A stretch of DNA of 64,000 nucleotides from Candidatus Anaerobutyricum avicola (GCA_019113845.1 DXGQ01000032.1:22834-86833); one strand, 5' to 3'. Counted from the first letter of the stretch, positions 2,411 to 16,554 are shown. Numbers and translations are program-made. The notes: generated by a model from the sequence alone, not told the origin.

Positions 2411-3799
2411 CTAAAGTAAAATATCCCGGATATCCTCGAATCCTGTGTTTGTGGTGACGATCATTACGGAATCTCCCTCCCGGATGCAGTCCTGCCCGCT
2501 CGGAATCAGAATCTTTCCCTCCCGGAAAATACAGGCAACCAGCAGATTCTTCTTTAAAGAAAGATCCATGAGCGGCACATCGGTCACTGCCGACGGCGCA
2601 TCCACCCGGAACTCGATGGCCTCCACCTGAGAATCATACATGTGATACAGCGTCTCAATATTGCTGTCCATGGAATTCTTTCTGGCACGTACGTAGGCGA
2701 TAATCGCTTCCGCGGTAATATATCTCGGATAGATCACGCTTCCCAGGTCAAGCCGGTTGATGACATCTTTAAAGGTGATACGGTTGATCTTTGTGATCAC
2801 TTTAGCATGAGACACCTGTCTTGCGTGAAGGGTCAGCAGGATATTCTCCTCGTCAATTCCCGTCAGCGGCACGAACGATTCCACCCAGGAAAGGCCTTCT
2901 TCTTCCAGAAGCTCCTGGTCCGTACCGTCTCCGTTGATGATGACCGCCTCCGGCAAAAGGATGCTCAGTTCCTCGCAGCGCTCTTTATCCTGCTCAATGA
3001 TCTTCACGGAAAGTCCCATCGGGATCAGCTGCTTTGCCAGATAAAACGCCGCCTTGCCGCCGCCGATAATCAGGGTGTTTGCCACCCGGGTCGTCTGGAA
3101 ACCAATCTGTTTTAAGAATGGCTTCGTCATCTTTCTCGGCGCCACAAAGGAAAGGATATCCCCTTTCTGTATCTGAAAATCACCGTCCGGGATATAGACA
3201 TCCTCGCCGCGCTCCACCGCGCAGACGAGAACTTCTTTTGCCAGCTTCTCCCCCATCTGGGCAATAGTCATGCCGTCGAGCACGTTGTTGTCCGGCACGG
3301 CAAACTTAATAAGCTCTGCCTGTCCGCGGGCAAAAGGATGCGTCTCCAGCGCCGACGGGAGAAACAGGATACGCGCCGCCTCCCTGGCGGCCTCCAGTTC
3401 CGGGTTGATGATCATGGTCAGTCCCAGTTTTTCCCGCAGGTATGCCGCCTCCTGGCTGTAATCCGGCGTACGGACCCTCGCGATGGTCGCACAATCACCG
3501 ACCTGTTTTGCCACCGTACAGCACAGCAGGTTCAATTCATCGGATTCTGTCACAGCGATAAACAGATCAGCTTTTTCAATCCCGGCCTCCATCTGCACAC
3601 TGAAACTGGCGCCATTCCCCGCCAGTCCCATAATGTCATAATAATTGGCGATTTCCTGTATTTTCCCGGCATTTTTATCGACAATCGTGATATCGTGCCC
3701 CTCTTTGGATAATTGCTCCACCAAAGTTACGCCGACTTTACCACAGCCGACGATGATAATCTTCAGTCCTCTCTTCACAGAAGTTTTCTTCCCAAACAT
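2411..3799 (-). CDS. trkA: Trk system potassium transporter TrkA
   Basis: Two Rossmann/TrkA-N units (IIVGCGKVGVTLVEQLSKEGHDITIVD; LIIGGGKAAFYLAKQL) plus TrkA-C; start MFGKK at 3799 preceded by AGGAGG. Confidence 0.93.
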   Translation of the reverse strand: MFGKKTSVKRGLKIIIVGCGKVGVTLVEQLSKEGHDITIVDKNAGKIQEIANYYDIMGLAGNGASFSVQMEAGIEKADLFIAVTESDELNLLCCTVAKQVGDCATIARVRTPDYSQEAAYLREKLGLTMIINPELEAAREAARILFLPSALETHPFARGQAELIKFAVPDNNVLDGMTIAQMGEKLAKEVLVCAVERGEDVYIPDGDFQIQKGDILSFVAPRKMTKPFLKQIGFQTTRVANTLIIGGGKAAFYLAKQLIPMGLSVKIIEQDKERCEELSILLPEAVIINGDGTDQELLEEEGLSWVESFVPLTGIDEENILLTLHARQVSHAKVITKINRITFKDVINRLDLGSVIYPRYITAEAIIAYVRARKNSMDSNIETLYHMYDSQVEAIEFRVDAPSAVTDVPLMDLSLKKNLLVACIFREGKILIPSGQDCIREGDSVMIVTTNTGFEDIRDILL

Positions 3800-3905
3800 T
3801 CTGCAATCCTCCTGTATTTCTTTCATACTTTCGCAAGAAGTATAGCACAAATTTCGTCATACAGACAGCTTTGTTTAAAATTTATCTTTTCCGGCGCCAT
3901 ATCTG

Positions 3906-5444
3906 TCAGTTTTGCGGAAAAACCATCTGGGCAAGATACTGTTCCTGAAACAGCGGATTTTGCGCCAGCACAATTTCTTTCACGCTTTCTGCCACCGTCT
4001 GAAATCTCCCGGCAAGGGATGGGTTTCCGGCGAAAAGCACCGCTCCTGCCAGCGAACTGTTCCCGACAGCTCTGACCTTTGGAACAAGCGCTTCCGGAAG
4101 CAGTCCGATCCCCGCCGCCTTTCGGATATTCACTTTCTGCCCGAATCCCCCGGCGAGATAGACATGACTGATCTCTTCGTATCCTGTACCGTATTCCCGA
4201 AGCAGCACTTCTATCCCTGCCCGGATAGCCGCTTTGGCAAGCTGCACTTCCCGGACATCCCCGATGGTAAAGGTCACAGATGGCGCAATCTCATATCCAT
4301 TTTTCAGAAAATTTTCTTCCGGTCTTCCGTCCGCACCGATGAATCCTTCTTTTAACAGCTCATACATGATCTCAATCACGCCGGAACCGCAAAGGCCTGC
4401 GGGAGCGCCGCCTCCGATCGTCTTTATATGCGGCCGTCCACAGATGATATTTACCGAAGAGACCGCCCCGGCGATTCCTGCCATACCGCAGCTGATATTT
4501 CCGCCTTCCAATGCCGGCCCCGCCGCCGTGGACGAAGCGAGCATCTTATCGCAGTTGCCGAGGACCATTTCTCCGTTGGTGCCCAGATCTACCAGAAGAT
4601 TGATATCCCTGTTTTCGTCCATACCACAGGCGATGACGCCGCTCACCACATCCGCGCCGACAAAGGCGCTGACTCCCGGAAGAATCGTCATATTTCCCGA
4701 CGGATGCAAAGAAAGATCGACCGGCGTGTACGGAGCCACACCGAGGGTCCGGCAGGAATAGCCGAGAAGCAGATGCTCCATCGTCGTATTTCCTGAAATG
4801 ACAAGAGGGGTATCCGGCGAGACGCCAAGACCGTCCATGAGAGACCGGATATCTTCTCTGATACATTGCCGGAGCTGCTCTCCTTTTCCTTCCACCGAAG
4901 CCTTGATGCGGGACAATACATCCGCGCCAAATGTGCGCTGATGGTTGACGGAGGTGACTGTTTTTGTTACCTGACCGGTCGCCGTTTCCACCAAAGACGC
5001 CGCCAGCGTCGTTGTGCCAATATCCATGGCAACAACCCTTCCGCCTTCCGAAGTTTCCGTACCCTGACAGGAAATGTCCGGCTTCCTCACATTTTTTGCA
5101 GATGCTCCCTTTCCGTCCTTCCCGTAAAACGCGCTCTCCGCCGCCATGGAACTCTCATCCATCCTCTTTTCCACAGTGATCTCCGCATCCAGTTCCTCTT
5201 CTCCCCGGTTCTTTACCTGACACGCCAGCCTCCATCCGGCATCCAGCTCTTCTTTTGTAAAAAAAGTCTGCTCTGTCTCTGTCGGGACAGGCGGATCACT
5301 CAGAAACTGTACCCGGCATTTTCCACAGGTGCCGTTTCCCCCGCAAAAAGCCGGCAGAAAAGCGCCTTCCCGCTGCATGACATCCAGAAGCGTCTCGTCT
5401 TTTTTTATGATAAAATGTCTTACATCCATTTTCGTATTCTCCAA
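3906..5444 (-). CDS. 2Fe-2S / ASKHA-domain protein, RACo-like corrinoid activation protein (DUF4445)
   Basis: N-terminal ferredoxin motif CGGNGTCGKC; ASKHA motifs AMDIGTTTLAASLV, LVDLGTNGEMVLG, YLAGGFGQKVN. Confidence 0.85.
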   Translation of the reverse strand: MENTKMDVRHFIIKKDETLLDVMQREGAFLPAFCGGNGTCGKCRVQFLSDPPVPTETEQTFFTKEELDAGWRLACQVKNRGEEELDAEITVEKRMDESSMAAESAFYGKDGKGASAKNVRKPDISCQGTETSEGGRVVAMDIGTTTLAASLVETATGQVTKTVTSVNHQRTFGADVLSRIKASVEGKGEQLRQCIREDIRSLMDGLGVSPDTPLVISGNTTMEHLLLGYSCRTLGVAPYTPVDLSLHPSGNMTILPGVSAFVGADVVSGVIACGMDENRDINLLVDLGTNGEMVLGNCDKMLASSTAAGPALEGGNISCGMAGIAGAVSSVNIICGRPHIKTIGGGAPAGLCGSGVIEIMYELLKEGFIGADGRPEENFLKNGYEIAPSVTFTIGDVREVQLAKAAIRAGIEVLLREYGTGYEEISHVYLAGGFGQKVNIRKAAGIGLLPEALVPKVRAVGNSSLAGAVLFAGNPSLAGRFQTVAESVKEIVLAQNPLFQEQYLAQMVFPQN

Positions 5445-5522: not shown

Positions 5523-5549
5523 AATCAGGGAACCCTGTCGGTTCCCTGA
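5523..5549 (-). terminator. Rho-independent terminator of the acidic-protein gene
   Basis: ATCAGGGAACC-CTGTC-GGTTCCCTGAT perfect inverted repeat, T-rich on minus strand. Confidence 0.7.
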
Positions 5550-5607
5550 TCGTCATAGTACGCTTATCAGTTATGTCATTTCAGCCATATCATTGATATC
5601 CGTTATA

Positions 5608-6558
5608 TCAGTCATCCCAGTCGCGATCATCATCGTCATCGTCATGTCTGTCATCCCAGTCGTCATCATCGTCATGCCTGTCATCCCAGTCATCATCATA
5701 GCGGTCGTCATGGTCATCGTAACGGTCATCCCAGTCATCGTCATAACGGTTATCTCCGCCAGCTGCAGGATAATTTACATAACTTCCTCCATTCTGATCA
5801 TCATGCCATTCCCAGTCATCATCCCAGTCATCGTCCCAGTCATCATGACCCCAGTCGTCGTCATCGCCCCAGTCGTCATAATCTCTGTCCCAGTCGAACT
5901 TATCTTCCAGATAATCTTCCACTTCATCCAGATAATCTTCTACGCGGTCGATGGCATCATCCATCCGCTCTGCGGTCCGTCCCCAGCGGTCATCCCAGCG
6001 ATCGTTGAGTCTGTCGAGCTTATGATCGATGGCATTCAGCTGACCAATGTAAGAATAATACTGTGTTCTGCGCTGACCGGCCGATACATTCCAGTTCGCT
6101 GCCTTTGCCGCTTTAAAGATCTTTTTGATCTGTTTTCTGTACTTGTTGAGTTTCTTCTCGTCGGAATTCTTTCCCTTGGAAGTGTTCCACTTCTTTGCAG
6201 CCTTCGCTGTGCCTTTTACCTTGATCTTCATGGTCGCTTTCAGGCTGGTTCCCTTAATCTCCACGGTAATCTTCGCCGTGCCTGCCTTGCGCGCCATGAT
6301 TCTGGTGTCATCGCCTCTTTTGCGAAGAACCTTTGCCACAGATGGCTTGCTGCTCTTCCAGACGATATTGCTGTCTCTGACGTAATCGTCATCAAATGCT
6401 CCATCCGCATCCAGTTCCACGGTTCTTCCCACCCATGCGGTCCTGGAACCGTCGATGTAAATGCTTCTTGACGCTGCCTTCGTATCCACATTCGCAGCCA
6501 GCATTACCGCTGCTGCCGCCGCAAGAGTGAGCGCGCCTGCCAATACTTTTTTCCTCAT
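5608..6558 (-). CDS. Secreted protein: signal peptide, Big2-like Ig domain, helical region, D/W/R/H-rich tail
   Basis: 316 aa; tail ...DDWGDDDDWGHDDWDDDWDDDWEWHDD...RYDDDWDDRHDDDDDWDDRHDDDDDDRDWDD; paralogous to 6800..7510. Confidence 0.85.
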   Translation of the reverse strand: MRKKVLAGALTLAAAAAVMLAANVDTKAASRSIYIDGSRTAWVGRTVELDADGAFDDDYVRDSNIVWKSSKPSVAKVLRKRGDDTRIMARKAGTAKITVEIKGTSLKATMKIKVKGTAKAAKKWNTSKGKNSDEKKLNKYRKQIKKIFKAAKAANWNVSAGQRRTQYYSYIGQLNAIDHKLDRLNDRWDDRWGRTAERMDDAIDRVEDYLDEVEDYLEDKFDWDRDYDDWGDDDDWGHDDWDDDWDDDWEWHDDQNGGSYVNYPAAGGDNRYDDDWDDRYDDHDDRYDDDWDDRHDDDDDWDDRHDDDDDDRDWDD

Positions 6559-6643
6559 AAATTTTTCCTCCCACTGATTTCGGTTTTGTGCTGCGGTTGC
6601 CCGGTTACATACAGATCTCTCATACTCTCTTTACTTCATTTTT

Positions 6644-6702
6644 TCTCCTGACGCATTTACCGCGTCAATAATGGTAGATTTGAAAGTTCACTTTCAAATT
6701 TA
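6644..6702. repeat. Dispersed two-hairpin repeat, copy A
   Basis: tctccTGACGCatttaccGCGTCAataatggtagATTTGAAAGTtcACTTTCAAAT; matches copies at 36.3, 52.3 and 55.5 kb. Confidence 0.85.
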
Positions 6703-6799
6703 TTTCAATCCTGCTACTTTCCCTGTCGACGCCGGACCCGTCGGTCCGGCATCAGAAAAACTGCATTTTTGAATCATATTGACTGCGACATCAGTCATT

Positions 6800-7510
6800 C
6801 TAATCATCATACCTGTCATCATCATATCTGTCGTCATAGAAATCATCATTCCAGTCAAACCTGTGATCCAGGTAGTCCTCTACTATCTCCATGTAATTCT
6901 CCACACTGTCCACTGCTCTCTCCATAGAACGCGCGGTGCTTCCCCAACGGTCATCCCAGCGATTACTGATCACATCGATCTTAAGGTCGATTGCATTTAA
7001 CCTTCTTTCAAAGTTCTGACGCACTGCTCTGCGTTCTGCCGGAGTTGCCGGTACAGCTGTCGCTGCCATCTGCTTTCTCAGTTTTTTGATTTTTTTCCGG
7101 TATTTTTTCAGTTTCTTTCTGTCAGAATCCGCTACGCTGGAAGTGGAGGTTGCTTTCTTTACTGTGATCGTTTTTGTCGTCTTGATGTTTGTTCCGTTGA
7201 TCTTTACAACAACTTTTGCCTTTCCGACTTTCAGTCCTTTTACTCTGGTATCATCACCACGACCATTTAATACCTTTAAAACGGAAGGCTTCTTACTCGT
7301 CCATACGACATCCCAGCTGCTCACCAGATCGTCATCCGGATAAATGTTCGTATCCAGTTCAATCGTCTTGCCTACCTGTACGGAACCGGAGCCTTCGATG
7401 CGAACTCCCTGCGGCGGAACCGCTGCCTTAGCCGGAACTGCTGTCGTCAGTAAAATAGTTGCTGCCATTGCTGATGTCAATAATCCTGCGAATACTTTCT
7501 TCTTACTCAT
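6800..7510 (-). CDS. Secreted Ig-like protein with Asp-rich tail (paralogue of 5608..6558)
   Basis: 236 aa; shared SxKPSVxKVLxxRGDDTR, LNAIDxKxDxxxxRWDDRWGxTA and VEDYLxxxFDW. Confidence 0.85.
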   Translation of the reverse strand: MSKKKVFAGLLTSAMAATILLTTAVPAKAAVPPQGVRIEGSGSVQVGKTIELDTNIYPDDDLVSSWDVVWTSKKPSVLKVLNGRGDDTRVKGLKVGKAKVVVKINGTNIKTTKTITVKKATSTSSVADSDRKKLKKYRKKIKKLRKQMAATAVPATPAERRAVRQNFERRLNAIDLKIDVISNRWDDRWGSTARSMERAVDSVENYMEIVEDYLDHRFDWNDDFYDDRYDDDRYDD

Positions 7511-7985
7511 AATTCTTCCTCCTTGTTGTCTTTAATCCGTGCAGACAATTTGTTGAAATGCTTTCGATATTTCAAACTTTATTGTGTGCTCTTGTCTTGT
7601 TTTGATGATGCCATTATATAGGCCATCTTTCAATTCCCTATAACGGAAAATTAAACTTTTCTTAAATTCTATCTGATTTATAGGAAATATTTTCACATTC
7701 AGACACTATTCAGAGAAATTCTGTTATGAGTGCTCAAACTGCTGTTTTCCTCCCGCAACATGCTGTTTTTTTATCGGATGGACTCATCATACGGAGCACC
7801 TTTTAAGTAGCTATAAAGAAAATTTAAACTTTTTCTAAACTCTATTATTTTAGTGTGAAATGTAAAATATTCGTAAATTCAGGTAAAATATAAGTAACTT
7901 AAAATAAAATCAATATAAATTCTGTGTATGTTTTCCATGGGTCTCATTTATCTCTGATAACGGAAAATCACACATTTCCTTTCCG

Positions 7986-8696
7986 TTACTTCTGACGAAA
8001 ACGGTAGCCGGCTCCCCAGACCGTCTCTATCAACTTCAACGTCTTTTCATCCGGTCCGATCTTCTCCCGGATGCGGTTAATGTGCACCGCCACCGTGGCG
8101 GTATCACCGATGGCGTCCATCCCCCATATGCGGTCAAACAACGTATCTTTGGAAAAAACAATGTTCGGATTGGATGCCAGAAAATACAGAAGTTCAAACT
8201 CTTTATTGGCAAGCTCCACTTCCCTGTCTCCCACAAAGACCTGTCTGGACAACGGAAGAATCTTCAGATCTCCCACCTGAATGCTGCCTTCCTCAAATGC
8301 CTTTCTCTTCGAAGTCTCATTACTCTTCTTGAGCCGCTCATGGATGTTGATATGCGCTTTCACCCGCGCCACCAGTTCACTTGGGCTGAACGGTTTCACA
8401 ATGTAATCGTCCGCTCCCAGCCCGAGACCCCTGATCTTATCCAGGTCTTCTCTTTTGGCGGTCACCATGATGATCGCCACGTCCTTCTGCTTGCGGATCT
8501 CCCGGCAGATGGTAAACCCATTGACTCCCGGCAGCATGACATCCAGCAGGATCAGGTCATAGTCGTTGGAAAGCGCCAGTTTCATCCCTTCCTGTCCATC
8601 CTGGCAGATGGTCACTTCAAAATCTTCGATCTCCAGATAATCTCTTTCAATCTCGGCGATCAGAATATCATCCTCCACGATCAATATCTTTCTCAT
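7986..8696 (-). CDS. OmpR-family response regulator
   Basis: 236 aa, REC (ILIVEDDILIAEIE...LILLDVMLPG...KPFSPSEL) plus winged-helix domain. Confidence 0.95.
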   Translation of the reverse strand: MRKILIVEDDILIAEIERDYLEIEDFEVTICQDGQEGMKLALSNDYDLILLDVMLPGVNGFTICREIRKQKDVAIIMVTAKREDLDKIRGLGLGADDYIVKPFSPSELVARVKAHINIHERLKKSNETSKRKAFEEGSIQVGDLKILPLSRQVFVGDREVELANKEFELLYFLASNPNIVFSKDTLFDRIWGMDAIGDTATVAVHINRIREKIGPDEKTLKLIETVWGAGYRFRQK

Positions 8697-8795
8697 AAAC
8701 CTTCTCTCTCCTTTTTACTATATCTCTGTTAACTTCTCTGTCTGTTTTTTCTGGCTTCTGCATTTTTATCTGTCCATCTCTCTGTGATGACTGGT

Positions 8796-10493
8796 TCAGG
8801 CAGTTTCCATTTCAGGTATAGCTTCTTCTCCATCCACAGGAAATTCCATCACAAATTTCAGTCCTTTTCCACCGATGCCTTCTTCCGCCCAGATGCGGCC
8901 GCCGTGTCCTTTCATGATCTCCCTTACGATAGAAAGCCCGAGCCCGCTCCCGTTGCCCGGATTCCGGCGGGCTTTATCTCCCCGGTAAAAGGTATCAAAT
9001 ATCTTATCCCTCTCTTCTTCCGGCACACCCGGTCCGTCGTCGGACAGCTCCAGACGGATCCATTTTTCATCTACGGTATAGAGGGCTGCCGTCACAACGG
9101 ATTTTGGTTTTTCTCTGTATTTGATCGTATTGTTGATCAGATTGCCGAGAATCCGCTTTAACTGCTGCCGGTCGCCCTGGATAAAGAGATTGTTCTTTTC
9201 CCAGACTGTTTTTACTAGGGAAAGACCATTGTTTTTAAATTCAATGCCATGCTCCTTAAAAAAGGAATCGACGAACTCACCAAAGTCAATCCGTTCCATG
9301 GAGTAATGATACTCTCCCCGGTCAAACCGGGAAAACAGGGAAAGATTATCGATCAGGTCCGCCAGATCCTCCGTTCGGATTTTGATGGCGTCATAGTAAC
9401 GGCGTTTTTTCTCCTCCGTGTTGGCAATGCCGTCTCTCAGCCCTTCCACATAGGCTTTGATGGATGTAAGAGGCGTGCGCAGATCATGGGAGATACCGGC
9501 GAGAAGCTGCTGTTTTGCTTCCTCATATTTTTCCCTTTCCTTCACGGAATTATCGAGATACTCGATCATCTCATCAAATTCCTGACAGGCCTTTCCCAGC
9601 TCATCCTTCTTTTTACTTCGGATGCGGTAAGAAAAATTGCCGTCCTGCACCTGCCGCACACCTTCCGACAACTGTTCCAGGGACTTGTTCATACCGCCGC
9701 TCAGCCAGCGGGTCAGGATAAATATGCTGATGGCGATAGCCACCGCGAGAGCTCCCACAAAAATCCCGAGGATTGAAATAAAATCCCGGATTACCTGGGA
9801 ATCTGAGGAATTGCTCACATAATCCTCGCAGAAAGCGAGGATACTCAGGGTGGTATTTTCCGCCGCATAGGAACGTTTTACTGCGGAGCTGCTCCCATCC
9901 GTGACTGCAAAGCTGGCAAGATTTTTGTACTCAGTTCCGGCAATGGCCGCGATCTTCTCCTCCGAACCTTCCGGCAGATTAGACGCGATGAGCTGATCGC
10001 CGTAATATATCTCATAATAGTATCCAATATTGCTCAATTCCCTTATCACTGTTCCAAAGGCGTTATTCTGCCGCCGGATTTCTTCTTCCAGCAGTGCCTC
10101 GCTGTCAACGCTCCCGCTCTGACCTTCGTCGTCTTCATCTTCGTCCCAGTCATCATCATCCCACTCGTCATCGTCCCACTCGTCGTCTTCGTCGGTATAA
10201 CCGGACGGATTATACACTTCTTCCACAGGCTGATAAGTCAGAATCTGATTTTGATAATTATATAGTATCGTCTGCACATTTAACAGACCGTTATCGTTAT
10301 TGTATAAAGCTTCCAGCCGGTTCAGCGTCCCGCTTCCGTGAAAAAAAAGTACGACGACACTGAAAAAACAAGCCACCACGATGGGGATTAAGATCATTAA
10401 GATGCTGGCCAGCGCTATTTTTTTACGTAAATTCAAACGGCTCCCCCCCTTTTTATAGTTATGTCCCTGCAATTTATTACACATTTTAAGCAT
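8796..10493 (-). CDS. Sensor histidine kinase with acidic D/W-rich extracytoplasmic loop
   Basis: HAMP, HisKA (GISHDLRTPLTSIKAY), HATPase; sensor segment DEDDEWDDDEWDDDDWDEDEDDEGQSG. Confidence 0.93.
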   Translation of the reverse strand: MLKMCNKLQGHNYKKGGSRLNLRKKIALASILMILIPIVVACFFSVVVLFFHGSGTLNRLEALYNNDNGLLNVQTILYNYQNQILTYQPVEEVYNPSGYTDEDDEWDDDEWDDDDWDEDEDDEGQSGSVDSEALLEEEIRRQNNAFGTVIRELSNIGYYYEIYYGDQLIASNLPEGSEEKIAAIAGTEYKNLASFAVTDGSSSAVKRSYAAENTTLSILAFCEDYVSNSSDSQVIRDFISILGIFVGALAVAIAISIFILTRWLSGGMNKSLEQLSEGVRQVQDGNFSYRIRSKKKDELGKACQEFDEMIEYLDNSVKEREKYEEAKQQLLAGISHDLRTPLTSIKAYVEGLRDGIANTEEKKRRYYDAIKIRTEDLADLIDNLSLFSRFDRGEYHYSMERIDFGEFVDSFFKEHGIEFKNNGLSLVKTVWEKNNLFIQGDRQQLKRILGNLINNTIKYREKPKSVVTAALYTVDEKWIRLELSDDGPGVPEEERDKIFDTFYRGDKARRNPGNGSGLGLSIVREIMKGHGGRIWAEEGIGGKGLKFVMEFPVDGEEAIPEMETA

Positions 10494-10597
10494 TTAGGCA
10501 TTATTAGTTTAAATTGTACCATGTATTTTTAAATAAAAAATAAATTTATCCTCAACTTTTATCGGTTTTTACGGGTCGCCGGCGCCGCGGCATAAAA

Positions 10598-10652
10598 ATG
10601 GCGGCGAGACGGGAACATTCTTTAAAGAACATTTTTCCCGCGTCGCCGCCGT
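10598..10652 (-). terminator. Strong hairpin downstream of the aldo/keto reductase
   Basis: GGCGGCGAGACGGGAA...TTCCCGCGTCGCCGCC near-perfect stem. Confidence 0.6.
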
Positions 10653-10670
10653 TTATTTTTGTTTTATATA

Positions 10671-11819
10671 TTATTTTCCGAATATCTTCGCTGCTTCCGC
10701 CATATTTTCCATGATCGGTACCTCGAACGGACAACGGGTCTCACATCCGCCGCAGCGGATGCATTCTCCTGCATGATGCGGAAGGACTTCGTAGTGCTCC
10801 CGCACCGTCTCCGGCACTTCTCCCTGTGCCTTCGCCAAATTGAGAAATTTGGTGACGGAGGCCACGTCGATCTTCTCCGGACACGGAGCGCAATGACTGC
10901 AGTACATACAGTGTCCCTTCCAGCTGATATTCGGAAAGGAAGCCAGCGCCATCGCATAATCTTTCTCTTCTTCCGGTGCGTCTTCATAGGCAAGACTCTC
11001 ATGAAGCTGCTCCACGGTACGCGCGCCGGCAAGCACCGTCGCCACCGCCGGCCGTGTCAGCGCGTAATGCAGGCACTGCGGTACGGTCAGAGCTTTTGCC
11101 GCCGGTGAGAGCGTCTCATCCAGCAGATCTCCTCCGCCGAAAGCCTTCATGACGGTGATTCCCACACCCATCTCCTGACAGATTTCGTACAGTCTTTGTC
11201 TCTCCGGATCCATATTAATCAGATGACGGGCATAGTTTTCCTCCCGCCACAAATCTTCCACGTCTTCTGTGGACGGCTGCAGATCATAGCACGGATTGAC
11301 GCTGAACATAAGAACCTCTATCTCCCCGCTGCAAACGGCGGCCAGAGCCACCTGCGCGTTATGACTGCTCAGACCGATATGATGAATGACTCCTTTCGCT
11401 TTTAATTCCCGCGCATACTCCATCACAGGACCATTTACAATCTCTTCCCAGTCTTTCATGGAATCCACATAATGAATCATTCCCACATCAATATAGTCTG
11501 TCTGCAGAAGAGAAAGCATTTCCTCAAAACCATTTTTCACTTCCTCCATGTTCCGGCTTCTTTTATACTGCCCGTCCTTCCAGATGGAACAAAGATGCGA
11601 CTGGATGATGAACTTCTCCCGTCTTCCCTTTAACGCCTGTCCTACGCTGGCGCGTACTTCCGGATTCGATGTATACAAGTCAAAGTAGTTGATGCCGTTC
11701 TTCTCAGCTATATCAAAAAACAGCTGCGTATTTTTACAGTCATTTTCTGCAAAACCCTCACAGCCCATGGCGATTTCGCTTACTTTTAATCCTGTTCTGC
11801 CAAGATTACGATACTGCAC
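10671..11819 (-). CDS. Aldo/keto reductase with C-terminal 4Fe-4S cluster motifs
   Basis: RNLGRTGLKVSEIAMGCEG; CMYCSHCAPCP and CIRCGGCETRCPF. Confidence 0.92.
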   Translation of the reverse strand: MQYRNLGRTGLKVSEIAMGCEGFAENDCKNTQLFFDIAEKNGINYFDLYTSNPEVRASVGQALKGRREKFIIQSHLCSIWKDGQYKRSRNMEEVKNGFEEMLSLLQTDYIDVGMIHYVDSMKDWEEIVNGPVMEYARELKAKGVIHHIGLSSHNAQVALAAVCSGEIEVLMFSVNPCYDLQPSTEDVEDLWREENYARHLINMDPERQRLYEICQEMGVGITVMKAFGGGDLLDETLSPAAKALTVPQCLHYALTRPAVATVLAGARTVEQLHESLAYEDAPEEEKDYAMALASFPNISWKGHCMYCSHCAPCPEKIDVASVTKFLNLAKAQGEVPETVREHYEVLPHHAGECIRCGGCETRCPFEVPIMENMAEAAKIFGK

Positions 11820-11960
11820 CCTGATCCCTTCTTTCTATAATTATTTCTTTTATCATACTACACCGACCGGGACCGGACCGTCAAATGCTTCTTTTCTATT
11901 TATTAAAATAGTTGACAGACATTTCTCTTTACATGACAAAGTCCGCCGCCGACTTTCCTT

Positions 11961-14078
11961 TTATCGGCCGAGATATACGTCAAGTACTTCTTTATCTTTC
12001 TGTACCACATAGCCGCTGCCGCCCAGTCCTTTTACATTTTCCACCATGCTGACCAGAAGAATCGGTTTTTCCAGATTTTTTTCTGTGGTAAAGACGGAGA
12101 ACCAGCCGATCTCCGTGCCGTCGGTATCGTCTTTGGAATCTTTCAGCTCGGCAGTACCTGTCTTTCCCGCCAGGGCGGCCGAAACACTGTGGGCGGCGTA
12201 CCCGGTCCCGTCCGGATGGTTGACCACACCGGAAAGACCTTCCATAATCTGATCCACCGCCTCTTCGGAGAACGCCTGCGGCAGCCAGATGTCTGCCTGC
12301 GATTTCTCTCCCAGGCTCAGGCGGGGTGCCAGCACATTTCCATCGTTCAGAAAGGCGGTGTAGAGTGCCGCCAGGTGCAGGGGATTCATGAGAATCTGTC
12401 CCTGTCCGTAGCCGCTGTCGGCCAGCTGAATCTCGTTTTCGATGGCATCTGTGTTGGAATATTGGGACTTCGCCATGAGAATCTCAAAAGGGAGCTGTTT
12501 ACCAAATCCCAGACGGTCCAGATTCTCGGTCAGGCGGTCCGCGCCGATACGCAGAGCCAGCTTCGCAAAGTAAATGTTGTCGGAATAGATGAGGGCGTTT
12601 TTGAGATTCGCCGGGTAGCCTGAATGAAGGGTCGTCACCTCGTACGCTCCCCAGGATTCGTCCTTCTGCCAGGAAAGTCCCTCATTGCCAAAGTCCTCTC
12701 CGGCGTCAAGTACGCCGGTATCAAGCCCGATGGCCGCCGTCACCGGCTTAAAGGAGGAACCCGGACACCAGACCTGCCGGAACCGGTTATAAAGCGGGCG
12801 GCTCTCGTCCTCATTGAGTCCGGTCCACTGCTCCTCCGACATTCCAGAAATAAAGTCATTGTTATCATAGGAGGGCGTGCTGACAAGGGCGAGCACCTCG
12901 CCGGTATAAGGGTTCATCGCCACAGAGCAGCCCGGGTCTTCCCGGAACTGTTCGTATAACTGCTCCTGCAGGGAGGCGTCGATGGTGAGAGTTATATCTT
13001 GTCCGTCTTCTTTTTCCACGGAGGCTATCGTCTCCGCAATCTCGCCGTTCTCATCCACTATCGTGATCTCACAGCCGTCCTGCCCTTTCAGTTCTTTTTC
13101 GTACAGGCTTTCCATGCCGCTGCGCCCGATGACGCTGCCGGCGCTGTAACCTTCACCTGCATGTTCTTCCAGATCTTCCGCCGTCACCTCCTGCACATAG
13201 CCGACCAGATGCGCGGCCGCCTCCGCCAGCGGATAGGTCCGGACCGTGATATCCGAGAGCATGACGCCGGGGATATTTAATAATTCTTTCTGGCGCTCCT
13301 GTTCTTTAAACGCCTCCCCGGCAGTCTCTCCTTCCATCAGCGCCCGCTGCTGTACTTTGGGGATCGTGGACACGGGAACAAAGGAATCATCCTGTACCCA
13401 GGCAGCCGACAGCTTATTTTCAATGGTCTCCGCGTCTGTGCCCAGAAGCTCCGCAATCTGTTCGAGCGACTTTTCTCTGTCCTCCAGCTTGCCCGGAACG
13501 ATTCCCACAGAGACTGCCGTTCCCTCTCCAGCCAGCATTCGGCCGTTCCGGTCGAGAATCTTTCCCCTGTCCGCATCATCGACAGACACCTGTACCTTGT
13601 CGGTGGAACGGAGCGAAGGGTAGATCAGGTCGTGATTCCAGCGAAGCCGGCAGGCGTCTCCGTCTTTTACGAACACTGCCGTGTTGGCAAATGTGACGGC
13701 TCCTGCCACGGTGTCAAATGACATATCATAGGATACGGAAACCTCCCCGTGTTTTACCTTTCCCACCTTCACATTACTGATTTTTATTTTATCAGTTTCC
13801 ATCCCCTCATAAATGCGGGAATTTCTCTCGATGAAGTCTCCACGGCTGATGCTGCCTGAGTCAGCCGCCTCCGTCATGTCGTACATTTCTTTGTATTCCT
13901 GTTTCTCAATATGCGCCATATACTCCCGCAAGCACTCCTCCGCCTGCACCCGGAAACGAATCCGGCTGCCCTGAAGCGTCCAGGCAGCGGCGCCGGCCGC
14001 CGCCAGCAGGAGAAGAAGCAGTATGACGAGTCCTGCCCGCCTTTTTCCCTTGCGCATACCTCTTTTCTGCCTTTTCAT
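11961..14078 (-). CDS. Class B penicillin-binding protein with MecA-type NTF2-like N-terminal domain
   Basis: 705 aa; SxxK motif PGSSFKPVTA, KTGTAE motif, N-terminal NTF2-like segment before DRGKILDRNG. Confidence 0.9.
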   Translation of the reverse strand: MKRQKRGMRKGKRRAGLVILLLLLLAAAGAAAWTLQGSRIRFRVQAEECLREYMAHIEKQEYKEMYDMTEAADSGSISRGDFIERNSRIYEGMETDKIKISNVKVGKVKHGEVSVSYDMSFDTVAGAVTFANTAVFVKDGDACRLRWNHDLIYPSLRSTDKVQVSVDDADRGKILDRNGRMLAGEGTAVSVGIVPGKLEDREKSLEQIAELLGTDAETIENKLSAAWVQDDSFVPVSTIPKVQQRALMEGETAGEAFKEQERQKELLNIPGVMLSDITVRTYPLAEAAAHLVGYVQEVTAEDLEEHAGEGYSAGSVIGRSGMESLYEKELKGQDGCEITIVDENGEIAETIASVEKEDGQDITLTIDASLQEQLYEQFREDPGCSVAMNPYTGEVLALVSTPSYDNNDFISGMSEEQWTGLNEDESRPLYNRFRQVWCPGSSFKPVTAAIGLDTGVLDAGEDFGNEGLSWQKDESWGAYEVTTLHSGYPANLKNALIYSDNIYFAKLALRIGADRLTENLDRLGFGKQLPFEILMAKSQYSNTDAIENEIQLADSGYGQGQILMNPLHLAALYTAFLNDGNVLAPRLSLGEKSQADIWLPQAFSEEAVDQIMEGLSGVVNHPDGTGYAAHSVSAALAGKTGTAELKDSKDDTDGTEIGWFSVFTTEKNLEKPILLVSMVENVKGLGGSGYVVQKDKEVLDVYLGR

Positions 14079-14122
14079 TTTTCGCCCTCCTTTTTCTTTG
14101 CAGAATTGTCTTTGTTAAATCT

Positions 14123-14170
14123 TACATATGTAATATTTAATATTATGCGCCACAGGTTTCTATTTGTCAA
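14123..14170 (-). promoter_or_regulatory. Promoter plus BlaI-type operator for the PBP at 11961..14078
   Basis: Minus strand TTGACA (14170-14165) -17- CATAAT (14147-14142), followed by TACATATGTA (14123-14132). Confidence 0.75.
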
Positions 14171-14193
14171 TTGTTTCAATTATTTTCTCTTGA

Positions 14194-14250
14194 TTGACCT
14201 TTTCCTCTCCCTGTCGTATAATAACCTTAGTTTTTCCTACATAAGTAAGA
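14194..14250 (+). promoter_or_regulatory. Promoter plus degenerate BlaI-type operator for blaI-blaR1
   Basis: TTGACC (14194-14199) -17- TATAAT (14217-14222), then TACATAAGTAAG. Confidence 0.7.
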
Positions 14251-14278
14251 ATAAGTGAAAAAACAGGAGGATTCGACT

Positions 14279-14668
14279 ATGGGGCAATTACCGCAGATAT
14301 CTGAGGCGGAATACGAAATCATGAAAATTCTCTGGGAAGAATATCCCCTCAGCACCAACGAGATCTGTGAGCGGGCGCAGCAAACGCACAGCTGGAATCA
14401 GAAGACCATTCACACACTGCTGTCCAGGCTCAACAACAAGCGGGTGATCTCCTATGAGAAGCGGGGACGTATGTACTATTATTTTCCGATCATCTCCCAG
14501 AATAAGTATCTGGAACAGGAGAATCACCATTTTCTTGACCGGTTCTATGACGGAAAGGCGGCGCCGATGCTCTCCGCCCTTTTGTCCAACGAGACGCTTA
14601 CTGATTCTGATCTGCAGGAAATGTACGACATGATTCAGTCAAAAATAAAGGGGGATGATGGCGAATGA
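14279..14668 (+). CDS. blaI: BlaI/MecI/CopY family transcriptional repressor
   Basis: MGQLPQISEAEYEIMKILWEEYPLSTNEI...WNQKTIHTLLSRLNNKRVISYEKRGRMYYYFP; AGGAGG upstream of ATG 14279. Confidence 0.93.
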   Translation: MGQLPQISEAEYEIMKILWEEYPLSTNEICERAQQTHSWNQKTIHTLLSRLNNKRVISYEKRGRMYYYFPIISQNKYLEQENHHFLDRFYDGKAAPMLSALLSNETLTDSDLQEMYDMIQSKIKGDDGE

Positions 14669-16554
14669 TCTCACCGGTTCATTTTCTGATGTGCAATGTG
14701 CTTCTCAGCATGTTTCTGGGAATCGTACTGCTCGTCCGCAAAATCAGCAGCCGGCATCTGACGATCCCTGTACGCTACCGTCTGTGGCATCTGTTTACCG
14801 CGGCTTTATTTCTGCCGTTTCTGCCATGGCGGCAGCTCTCTCCTCAGGAGTTTCTCTTTTGGATACAGGATCTGCTGACCCAGGACACCACAGCTTCGGC
14901 GGTCACTCACACAGCGGAGAATGCTGTGCAGAGCAGCTCTTCCGGCACCGTGATCCGGGATTTTTCCACGGCGGTGACTGCTTCCGGCATATCGCTCTCC
15001 CGGATACTCGGCATTATCTGGATCGTCGGTATGACAGCCGTGACGCTCTATTTTGCCGTCACTTTGCTGAGCATCCATAAAATAAAACGGAACGCATTTC
15101 TTGTCACCGCGGAATCGGAGCCGGACCTGTACCGGCAGTTTTCCTCCTGCGTCCGCGAACTGTCTCTCCGGCAGGACGTGAAGCTTTATGCTTCCTGCGA
15201 CATTCAGAATCCTGTGTCCTGCGGATGGCTGAGACCGACGATTATCATCCCTCAGGATCTGGATATCGTGTCCTCGGCAGAAGAACTCCGTTTCATTTTT
15301 CTTCACGAACTGCAGCACTGCAAACATAAGGACGCCCTCCTTAATCTGCTGGTCTGCGTACTGGAAACTCTGTACTGGTTCAATCCGCTCATCTGGTATG
15401 GGTTTTACCAGTTCCGAAAGGACCGGGAGATTGCCTGTGACCACGCTGTCCTCCGTCTGATAGGCGGCGGGGAGCGGATGCGCTACGGCCTCACTATCCT
15501 GCAGTTCGCGCAGCACGCCAAAAGCGGTGTCTTTGCCTCCCCGCTTTCCGGTATCAGCAGCAGCGCCGCCACCACCAAACAGCGTATCACGGAGATCGCG
15601 GAATACCGGCCGGTCACTGCCCTGCAGCGGCTCAAAAGCGCAGGCATCTTTCTTTTAATCTTCCTGCTTCTTCTTGGCACAAGCCCTCTTTTGTCCGCCT
15701 ACGCTTCCGGTTCCCCGGTCTTTCATCTGGCAGAGGGAGCATGGAAGGAAGCCGATGTGGCTGAGAGTTTCGACGGCCGGGACGGCTCCTTTGTGCTGTA
15801 CGACATGGAAACCGACGAGTATTACATTTACAACAAAGAAAAAAGCGAGAAGAGAATCTCTCCCGCTTCCACCTTTAAAATATACAGCGGCCTTTTCGCT
15901 CTGGAGAAAGGACTCATCACCCCGGAATCCTCCACACAGCAGTGGGACGGCTCCGCGCAGCCTTTCTCTGCGTGGATGCAGGACCAGACTCTCACATCCG
16001 CCATGCAGGATTCCGTCAACTGGTATTTCCAGAATCTTGACAGACAGATGGGGCTTGCCTCCCTCGCTTCCGATTACAGTCGGATCGGCTACGGCAACTG
16101 CGATCTGAGCAGCGGCGTCGAGAGCTATTGGTCAGATTCTCTTGCCATATCGCCTCTGGAACAGGTACGGCTTTTGTCCGGCCTGCTTCGCAACCAGTGG
16201 GATTTCGCCCCGGAAAATGTACAGGCCATCAAAAATGCATTGCTTTTATCCGAAGATTCCGTATCCGGCGGCAGACTGTACGGAAAGACCGGAACGATCG
16301 GAAGCAGCGGTGAAACTTCCTCAGGAAGCAGCAAAACCACAGGCAACGGCACTTCTGCGGGCAGTGATAAAACCGCCAATGGCATTTCCGCCGATGGCAG
16401 CGGCCAGCAGATGGGCTGGCTTGTGGGCTTCCTGGAAACCAGCGAGACTACCTACTGTTTCGCCGTCAATCTGCAGGGCGAGGGATGTGACGGCAGCACC
16501 GCCGCCGATGTGGCGCTGCAATCTCTGACAACGATGTTGTCCCAGACAGAGTAG
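14665..16554 (+). CDS. blaR1: BlaR1-family beta-lactam sensor/signal transducer (M56 peptidase plus class D-like sensor domain)
   Basis: HELQHCKHKD zinc peptidase motif; sensor domain SPASTFKIYSGLFAL, KTGTIG. Confidence 0.93.
   Translation: MISPVHFLMCNVLLSMFLGIVLLVRKISSRHLTIPVRYRLWHLFTAALFLPFLPWRQLSPQEFLFWIQDLLTQDTTASAVTHTAENAVQSSSSGTVIRDFSTAVTASGISLSRILGIIWIVGMTAVTLYFAVTLLSIHKIKRNAFLVTAESEPDLYRQFSSCVRELSLRQDVKLYASCDIQNPVSCGWLRPTIIIPQDLDIVSSAEELRFIFLHELQHCKHKDALLNLLVCVLETLYWFNPLIWYGFYQFRKDREIACDHAVLRLIGGGERMRYGLTILQFAQHAKSGVFASPLSGISSSAATTKQRITEIAEYRPVTALQRLKSAGIFLLIFLLLLGTSPLLSAYASGSPVFHLAEGAWKEADVAESFDGRDGSFVLYDMETDEYYIYNKEKSEKRISPASTFKIYSGLFALEKGLITPESSTQQWDGSAQPFSAWMQDQTLTSAMQDSVNWYFQNLDRQMGLASLASDYSRIGYGNCDLSSGVESYWSDSLAISPLEQVRLLSGLLRNQWDFAPENVQAIKNALLLSEDSVSGGRLYGKTGTIGSSGETSSGSSKTTGNGTSAGSDKTANGISADGSGQQMGWLVGFLETSETTYCFAVNLQGEGCDGSTAADVALQSLTTMLSQTE

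Follow-up and report, generated by a model that had tools for sequence, protein, structure and literature searches.

The locus described here raises the question of how a sensor histidine kinase with an extremely acidic extracytoplasmic loop is related to the two secreted proteins encoded beside it. The window, that is the whole 64,000-nucleotide stretch of Candidatus Anaerobutyricum avicola DNA that was analysed, carries on its minus strand genes for the sensor kinase, an OmpR-family regulator and two secreted proteins, SecB and SecA, followed by a probable terminator, a corrinoid-activation-like gene, TrkA and TrkH. The kinase (8796..10436, minus strand) has HAMP, HisKA and HATPase_c domains above the Pfam cut-offs. 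Its longest open reading frame spans 8796-10493 on the minus strand, with an ATG at 10493. Because the orthologues and a GGGGGGG ribosome site fit TTG 10436, the kinase probably starts at that codon rather than at the ATG. The regulator (7986..8696, minus strand) contains Response_reg (5.7e-30) and Trans_reg_C (1.8e-25) domains. Kinase and regulator thus have the make-up of an OmpR/PhoB-type two-component system (TCS), with all four domains (HisKA and HATPase_c, receiver and winged helix) above the Pfam cut-offs. The probable terminator 3′ of SecA (5523..5551, minus strand) has a 12-bp stem and a T-rich tail. Read from the sequence, the gene at 3906-5444 is presumably of a ferredoxin-type, corrinoid-activation-like kind, and we take the genes at 2411..3850 (minus strand) and 917-2398 to be those of TrkA, for K+ uptake, and TrkH. 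The gene at 3906-5444 sits here between SecA and trkA; it is missing from that place in loci L005 and L045.

SecB (6800..7510, minus strand; 236 aa) and its paralogue SecA (5608..6558, minus strand; 316 aa) are 49% identical and are the sole two full members of their family in the genome. The initial annotation had described them as secreted paralogues, and the signal peptide, the Ig-like region and the helical block were all recovered in both reading frames. It had also given both proteins Asp/Trp/Arg/His-rich tails. This holds for SecA, which has the same body as SecB plus a long tail, but not for SecB, which has a short D/Y tail only. The SecA tail (5611..5889, minus strand) is built of short DNA repeats. 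Its 93 residues include 49 Asp and 10 Trp and carry a net charge of -43, as against +12 for the SecA body. Read directly, the tail consists of D/W/R/H repeats, and neither an RTX (GGxGxDxx) nor a dockerin motif was found in it. SecB is basic overall (pI 9.4). An AlphaFold2 model computed from four sequences (mean pLDDT 80.7) shows a beta sandwich, a three-helix bundle and a disordered tail. Using Foldseek, the sandwich (SecB 7157..7408, minus strand) matched the Big_2/Ig-like domains 7quz (E 6.3e-5), 2l04 and SbsC. The N-terminal half of the Sec proteins therefore resembles the domains of Big_2 surface proteins in predicted fold. The Sec proteins differ from these in joining a single such domain to an undescribed helical bundle and in staying below the Pfam cut-off (PF02368, 14.4 vs 22.8 bits in SecA). 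The helical block of SecB (6857..7144, minus strand) comprises three helices, at positions 94-121, 128-157 and 162-189 of the mature protein, the first of which is strongly basic; Foldseek gave no convincing match for these helices.

As the initial annotation had stated, the sensor kinase carries an acidic stretch, TDEDDEWDDDEWDDDDWDEDEDDE, in its extracytoplasmic region. It occupies residues 100-123 of the long reading frame (10125..10196, minus strand), between TM1 and TM2, and is an insertion with respect to homologous loopless sensors, lying as a separate element in a TM1-TM2 region of roughly 180 residues. In its most acidic 25 residues, this kinase has a net negative charge of 20; the other histidine-kinase-like reading frames among 30 HATPase_c loci of the same genome reach at most 8. 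The second-highest acid score among these 30 loci, 16, belongs to a 673-aa reading frame without predicted TM segment. The extreme acidic loop is therefore unique among the histidine kinases of the genome, beyond chance. A single-sequence structure model of the sensor was too poor for a fold search (pLDDT 47.6).

The association of loop and secreted protein was followed in related genomes, whose assemblies are drafts with contig breaks. All seven complete kinases beside a Big2-type Sec gene carry the loop (G000, G023, G001, G008, G011, G389 and G687; acid scores 16-23), as against none of nine complete kinases with a homologous sensor and no Sec neighbour (acid scores 4-9). The loopless homologues had been gathered by a sensor-domain search with the loop removed from the query. 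An incomplete kinase at a contig end in G060 has an intermediate acidic stretch (13). Within the genus, Sec genes occur in G000, G001, G023, G007, G008, G011 and G013, and the kinase sensor in G000, G001, G023, G008, G011 and partly G022. In G007, the TCS lies directly upstream of one Sec gene, and a contig end cuts off the N-terminus of the kinase. The full module is also present in a second genus, in G389 (acid score 19) and G687 (acid score 23). Kinase and Sec genes thus co-occur in related genomes. This speaks for the conserved cell-surface module proposed in the initial annotation, which had named lack of such co-occurrence as grounds for rejection. In a tree of the kinases, however, all seven loop-bearing members fall on one side of a fully supported branch, so that the association may reflect a single event rather than seven independent ones.

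Comparison of window positions 9750-15144 with L005 DNA showed 97-100% identity along about 5 kb; inside the kinase gene, the identity falls to about 71-85%. This sharp junction near 9750 suggests, at the level of sequence, either a recent homologous exchange or an assembly chimera. In the CHKCI004 response regulator (L005:6827-7516), an in-frame deletion of 7 residues (MRKILIAEIERDY vs MRKILIVEDDILIAEIERDY) takes out the acidic pocket of the receiver domain.

The helical block is described by none of the entries in Pfam, NCBIfam, PHROGs or the PDB, in agreement with the earlier remark that no described family with this architecture was recognised, and a described system of this kind was not found in open-licence papers. 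Sub-threshold matches in Pfam, NCBIfam, PHROGs and the PDB (haemagglutinin stalks, tropomyosin, EzrA) were of coiled-coil type and were taken as chance; weak profile matches (roughly E > 1e-8) and coiled-coil repeats such as L128 were likewise dropped as coiled coils. With a helical-block profile, 38 of the 397 genomes sampled from the same family gave members at E <= 1e-3, about half of them strong; order-level sampling gave weak members only. Two architectures were distinguished. One combines signal peptide, Big2-like domain and helices; the other consists of the helices alone, in lipoproteins or short secreted proteins. Of the strong members of lipoprotein type, about half are encoded no more than a few genes away from a kinase or regulator (L113-116, L118, L121, L122, L126, L127 and L129), a count in which the L113-116 sequences are near-identical. 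These lipoproteins have the same C-terminal helical domain, ending in FGIDD, make up a wider undescribed family and often stand beside other kinase/regulator pairs. Members of the lipoprotein branch are acidic (pI about 4.1), and the kinases next to them show no such loop (acid score at most 12), so that the pairing of opposite charges does not extend to the helical domain in general.

Some neighbouring arrangements were also recorded. In the second genus, a lipoprotein is encoded directly 3′ of Sec, with PepSY domains at L112:7919-8578 and a similar N-terminus at L277:3590-4228. In another genus (G356, L058:2359-6035), PepSY-like and Ig-like secreted proteins are encoded 3′ of a kinase/regulator pair and end in Asp/His-rich tails that recall the D/W tails of the window. 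In G202, the secreted protein lies 3′ of an RsgI-like transmembrane regulator (PF23750) whose long C-terminal tail is acidic: at L052:7201-9620, a SigI-like sigma factor and an RsgI-like anti-sigma factor, the latter with a long extracellular tail rich in D/E, precede the Sec homologue. This regulator is possibly a second kind of acidic sensor beside the Sec family, although it uses a different signalling machinery from the window TCS and represents one case only.

The promoters point to a common control of these genes. The proximal promoter of SecB (7613..7666, minus strand) contains four boxes at an 11-bp period (TTTA, TTTA, GTTA, TTGA) and a TATAAT, and is conserved in relatives. A distal array (7786..7839, minus strand) is a copy of it with TATGAT. 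In front of the kinase operon (10513..10555, minus strand), TTGA, TTTA and TTTA at the 11-bp period are followed by TACAAT at the same offset. At most one mismatch being allowed, the window contains seven three-box matches, compared with 0.31 expected. Exact three-box sites number only two in the whole genome, one of them in front of SecB. Genome-wide and at two mismatches, sites outside the locus were about as common as control sites, and no clear wider regulon emerged. In the Sec promoters of relatives, TATAAT begins 15 nucleotides past the start of the fourth box. The array and this fixed -10 offset are found in G000, G001, G023, G007 (at both Sec copies, on contigs C71 and C351), G008, G011, G389, G687 and one gene of G688. 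At the kinase promoters, the final two or three boxes of the array precede TACAAT or TAAAAT, again at the Sec-type offset, the array being present in G000, G001 and G023 and as two-box versions in G008, G011 and G389. Compared with dinucleotide shuffles, box scores are higher at almost all Sec sites; for the two-box kinase sites of G008 and G011, taken alone, the result is borderline (p 0.06-0.07). The array is absent at the Sec genes of G013 and G202, which do not have this TCS beside them, and no clear array at this spacing was seen for the second Sec copy of G688 or for the Sec copies of G689 and G690. The first Sec gene of G688 (L276:6830-7537) has a perfect promoter, matching 18 of 18 box and -10 positions, and no adjoining TCS, which suggests control in trans.

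Boxes at an 11-bp period with a fixed -10 offset are the geometry of an OmpR-family activated promoter, and tandem direct repeats of about this period, as expected for OmpR/PhoB regulators, are present in sequence at both the Sec and the kinase promoters. We infer that the response regulator may bind the TTTA boxes, and the kinase operon and the Sec genes are apparently co-regulated. The shared promoter architecture thus argues for the control of both secreted-protein genes by the TCS, on which the initial annotation had made its proposal depend.

Which property of the secreted proteins is conserved could be read from the orthologues. Those of G007, G008, G011, G389 and G687 end at FNYEFD(D) and are tailless, while their readable kinases keep the acidic loop. 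D/W tails are limited to the clade of the window (G000, G001 and G023). These three tailed genomes, as well as G022, have Trp in the sensor loop, and Trp is absent from the loops of G008, G011, G389 and G687. The acidic tail is therefore ruled out as a hallmark of the family, and the initial idea that it is the common denominator of sensor and secreted proteins had to be given up. The Sec body itself has a pI of 8.9-10.1 in genomes with the TCS, 7.9 in G013, where the search found no such TCS, and 8.8 in G202. As judged from these sequences, the conserved relation is one of opposite charge, between a basic secreted body and an acidic sensor loop. This runs against the earlier picture of sensor and secreted proteins as acidic parts sharing a ligand, and favours direct docking.

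The reading that we prefer, with a probability of roughly 0.4, is that of a TCS whose co-regulated secreted partner docks on the acidic loop, in competition with polycations or salt, with mimicry by the tail in one clade. It is suggested by co-occurrence, shared promoter architecture, opposite charge and the clade-specific resemblance of loop and tail. The basic Sec body, through its first helix and Ig domain, would hold the acidic loop of the sensor and so fix the state of the kinase. The partner would be freed, and the kinase switched, by a competitor, either a polycation (for instance a cationic peptide) or high ionic strength or divalent cations. The response regulator would then bind the 11-bp-period TTTA boxes and activate its own operon and the Sec genes, and fresh Sec protein would reset the sensor. 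In the clade of the window, the D/W tail of SecA may mimic the sensor loop and compete with it for the basic surface. We infer the contact between Sec and loop, the sign of the feedback, the ligand and the binding of the regulator. A more specific form, in which the feedback is charge-coded, a TCS-induced basic Ig/helical-bundle protein docking on a disordered acidic loop with the tail of one lineage as built-in competitor, is rather doubtful.

Docking is favoured by two systems that act alike. In Enterobacteria, CpxP is a secreted, all-helical, TCS-linked accessory protein whose positive inner surface is thought to contact negative residues of the CpxA sensor and which is detached by salt (PMC4160245). 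The Sec module belongs to a Gram-positive-type host group and differs by an added Ig domain, by the disordered acidic loop insertion and by acidic tails in one clade; Pfam and NCBIfam scans did not place Sec in the CpxP/Spy family. In staphylococci (GraS/ApsS with VraG), the acidic extracellular loop of GraS, which senses host defence peptides, is masked by the lysine-rich extracellular loop of the functionally linked protein VraG, cationic peptides being the signal (PMC7951975). There, the loop has 9 residues and the partner is a permease; here, a loop of about 20-100 residues is part of a larger ectodomain, and a free secreted protein stands in the place of the permease. With a TM1-TM2 region of roughly 180 residues, the window kinase does not have the roughly 9-residue extracellular loop of the GraS/ApsS type.

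The main rival is direct ligand sensing, which we regard as possible if somewhat improbable. The acidic loop would itself bind cationic peptides or divalent cations, and the Sec proteins would be an output that binds the same ligand as a decoy or protects the wall, without contact to the sensor. ApsS/GraS and PhoQ are precedents for direct sensing by an acidic region of a kinase. The acidic loop and the shared regulation are as expected from such sensing, the acidic D/W tail of SecA suits a decoy in the clade of the window, and the short acidic loop of GraS is known to sense host defence peptides (PMC7951975). However, most Sec orthologues are basic and tailless, and a shared cationic ligand therefore cannot be their general function. 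We consider it unlikely that the Sec proteins are ordinary envelope proteins under a stress TCS, with loop and tail as disordered, repeat-expanded linkers of no specific role. The DNA of both consists of slippage-prone short tandem repeats, and within the loop-bearing clade the loop is not conserved in sequence, being unalignable and varying several-fold in length. Yet in all seven loop-bearing kinases the loop has stayed acidic although its sequence has changed completely, and homologous kinases with no Sec gene next to them are loopless. A circuit in which the loop senses ionic strength or K+ on behalf of the neighbouring potassium transporter TrkAH is very unlikely. Sec does adjoin trkAH in G000, G001, G023, G007 and G013, but four genomes (G008, G011, G389 and G687) have the module away from it, and in the window SecA and trkA have a terminator and another gene between them.

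Few accessory proteins of sensor kinases have been characterised well. This locus offers an undescribed secreted family, a predicted regulator site and a predicted docking partner, and the homologous kinases without loop or partner form a natural control set. The helical domain is common to a wider set of lipoproteins, many of them beside other TCSs. Overall, the data suggest that in some gut Lachnospiraceae an acidic-loop sensor and oppositely charged secreted proteins form an electrostatic signalling pair, and the tuning of a sensor by charge complementarity becomes directly testable in these bacteria.
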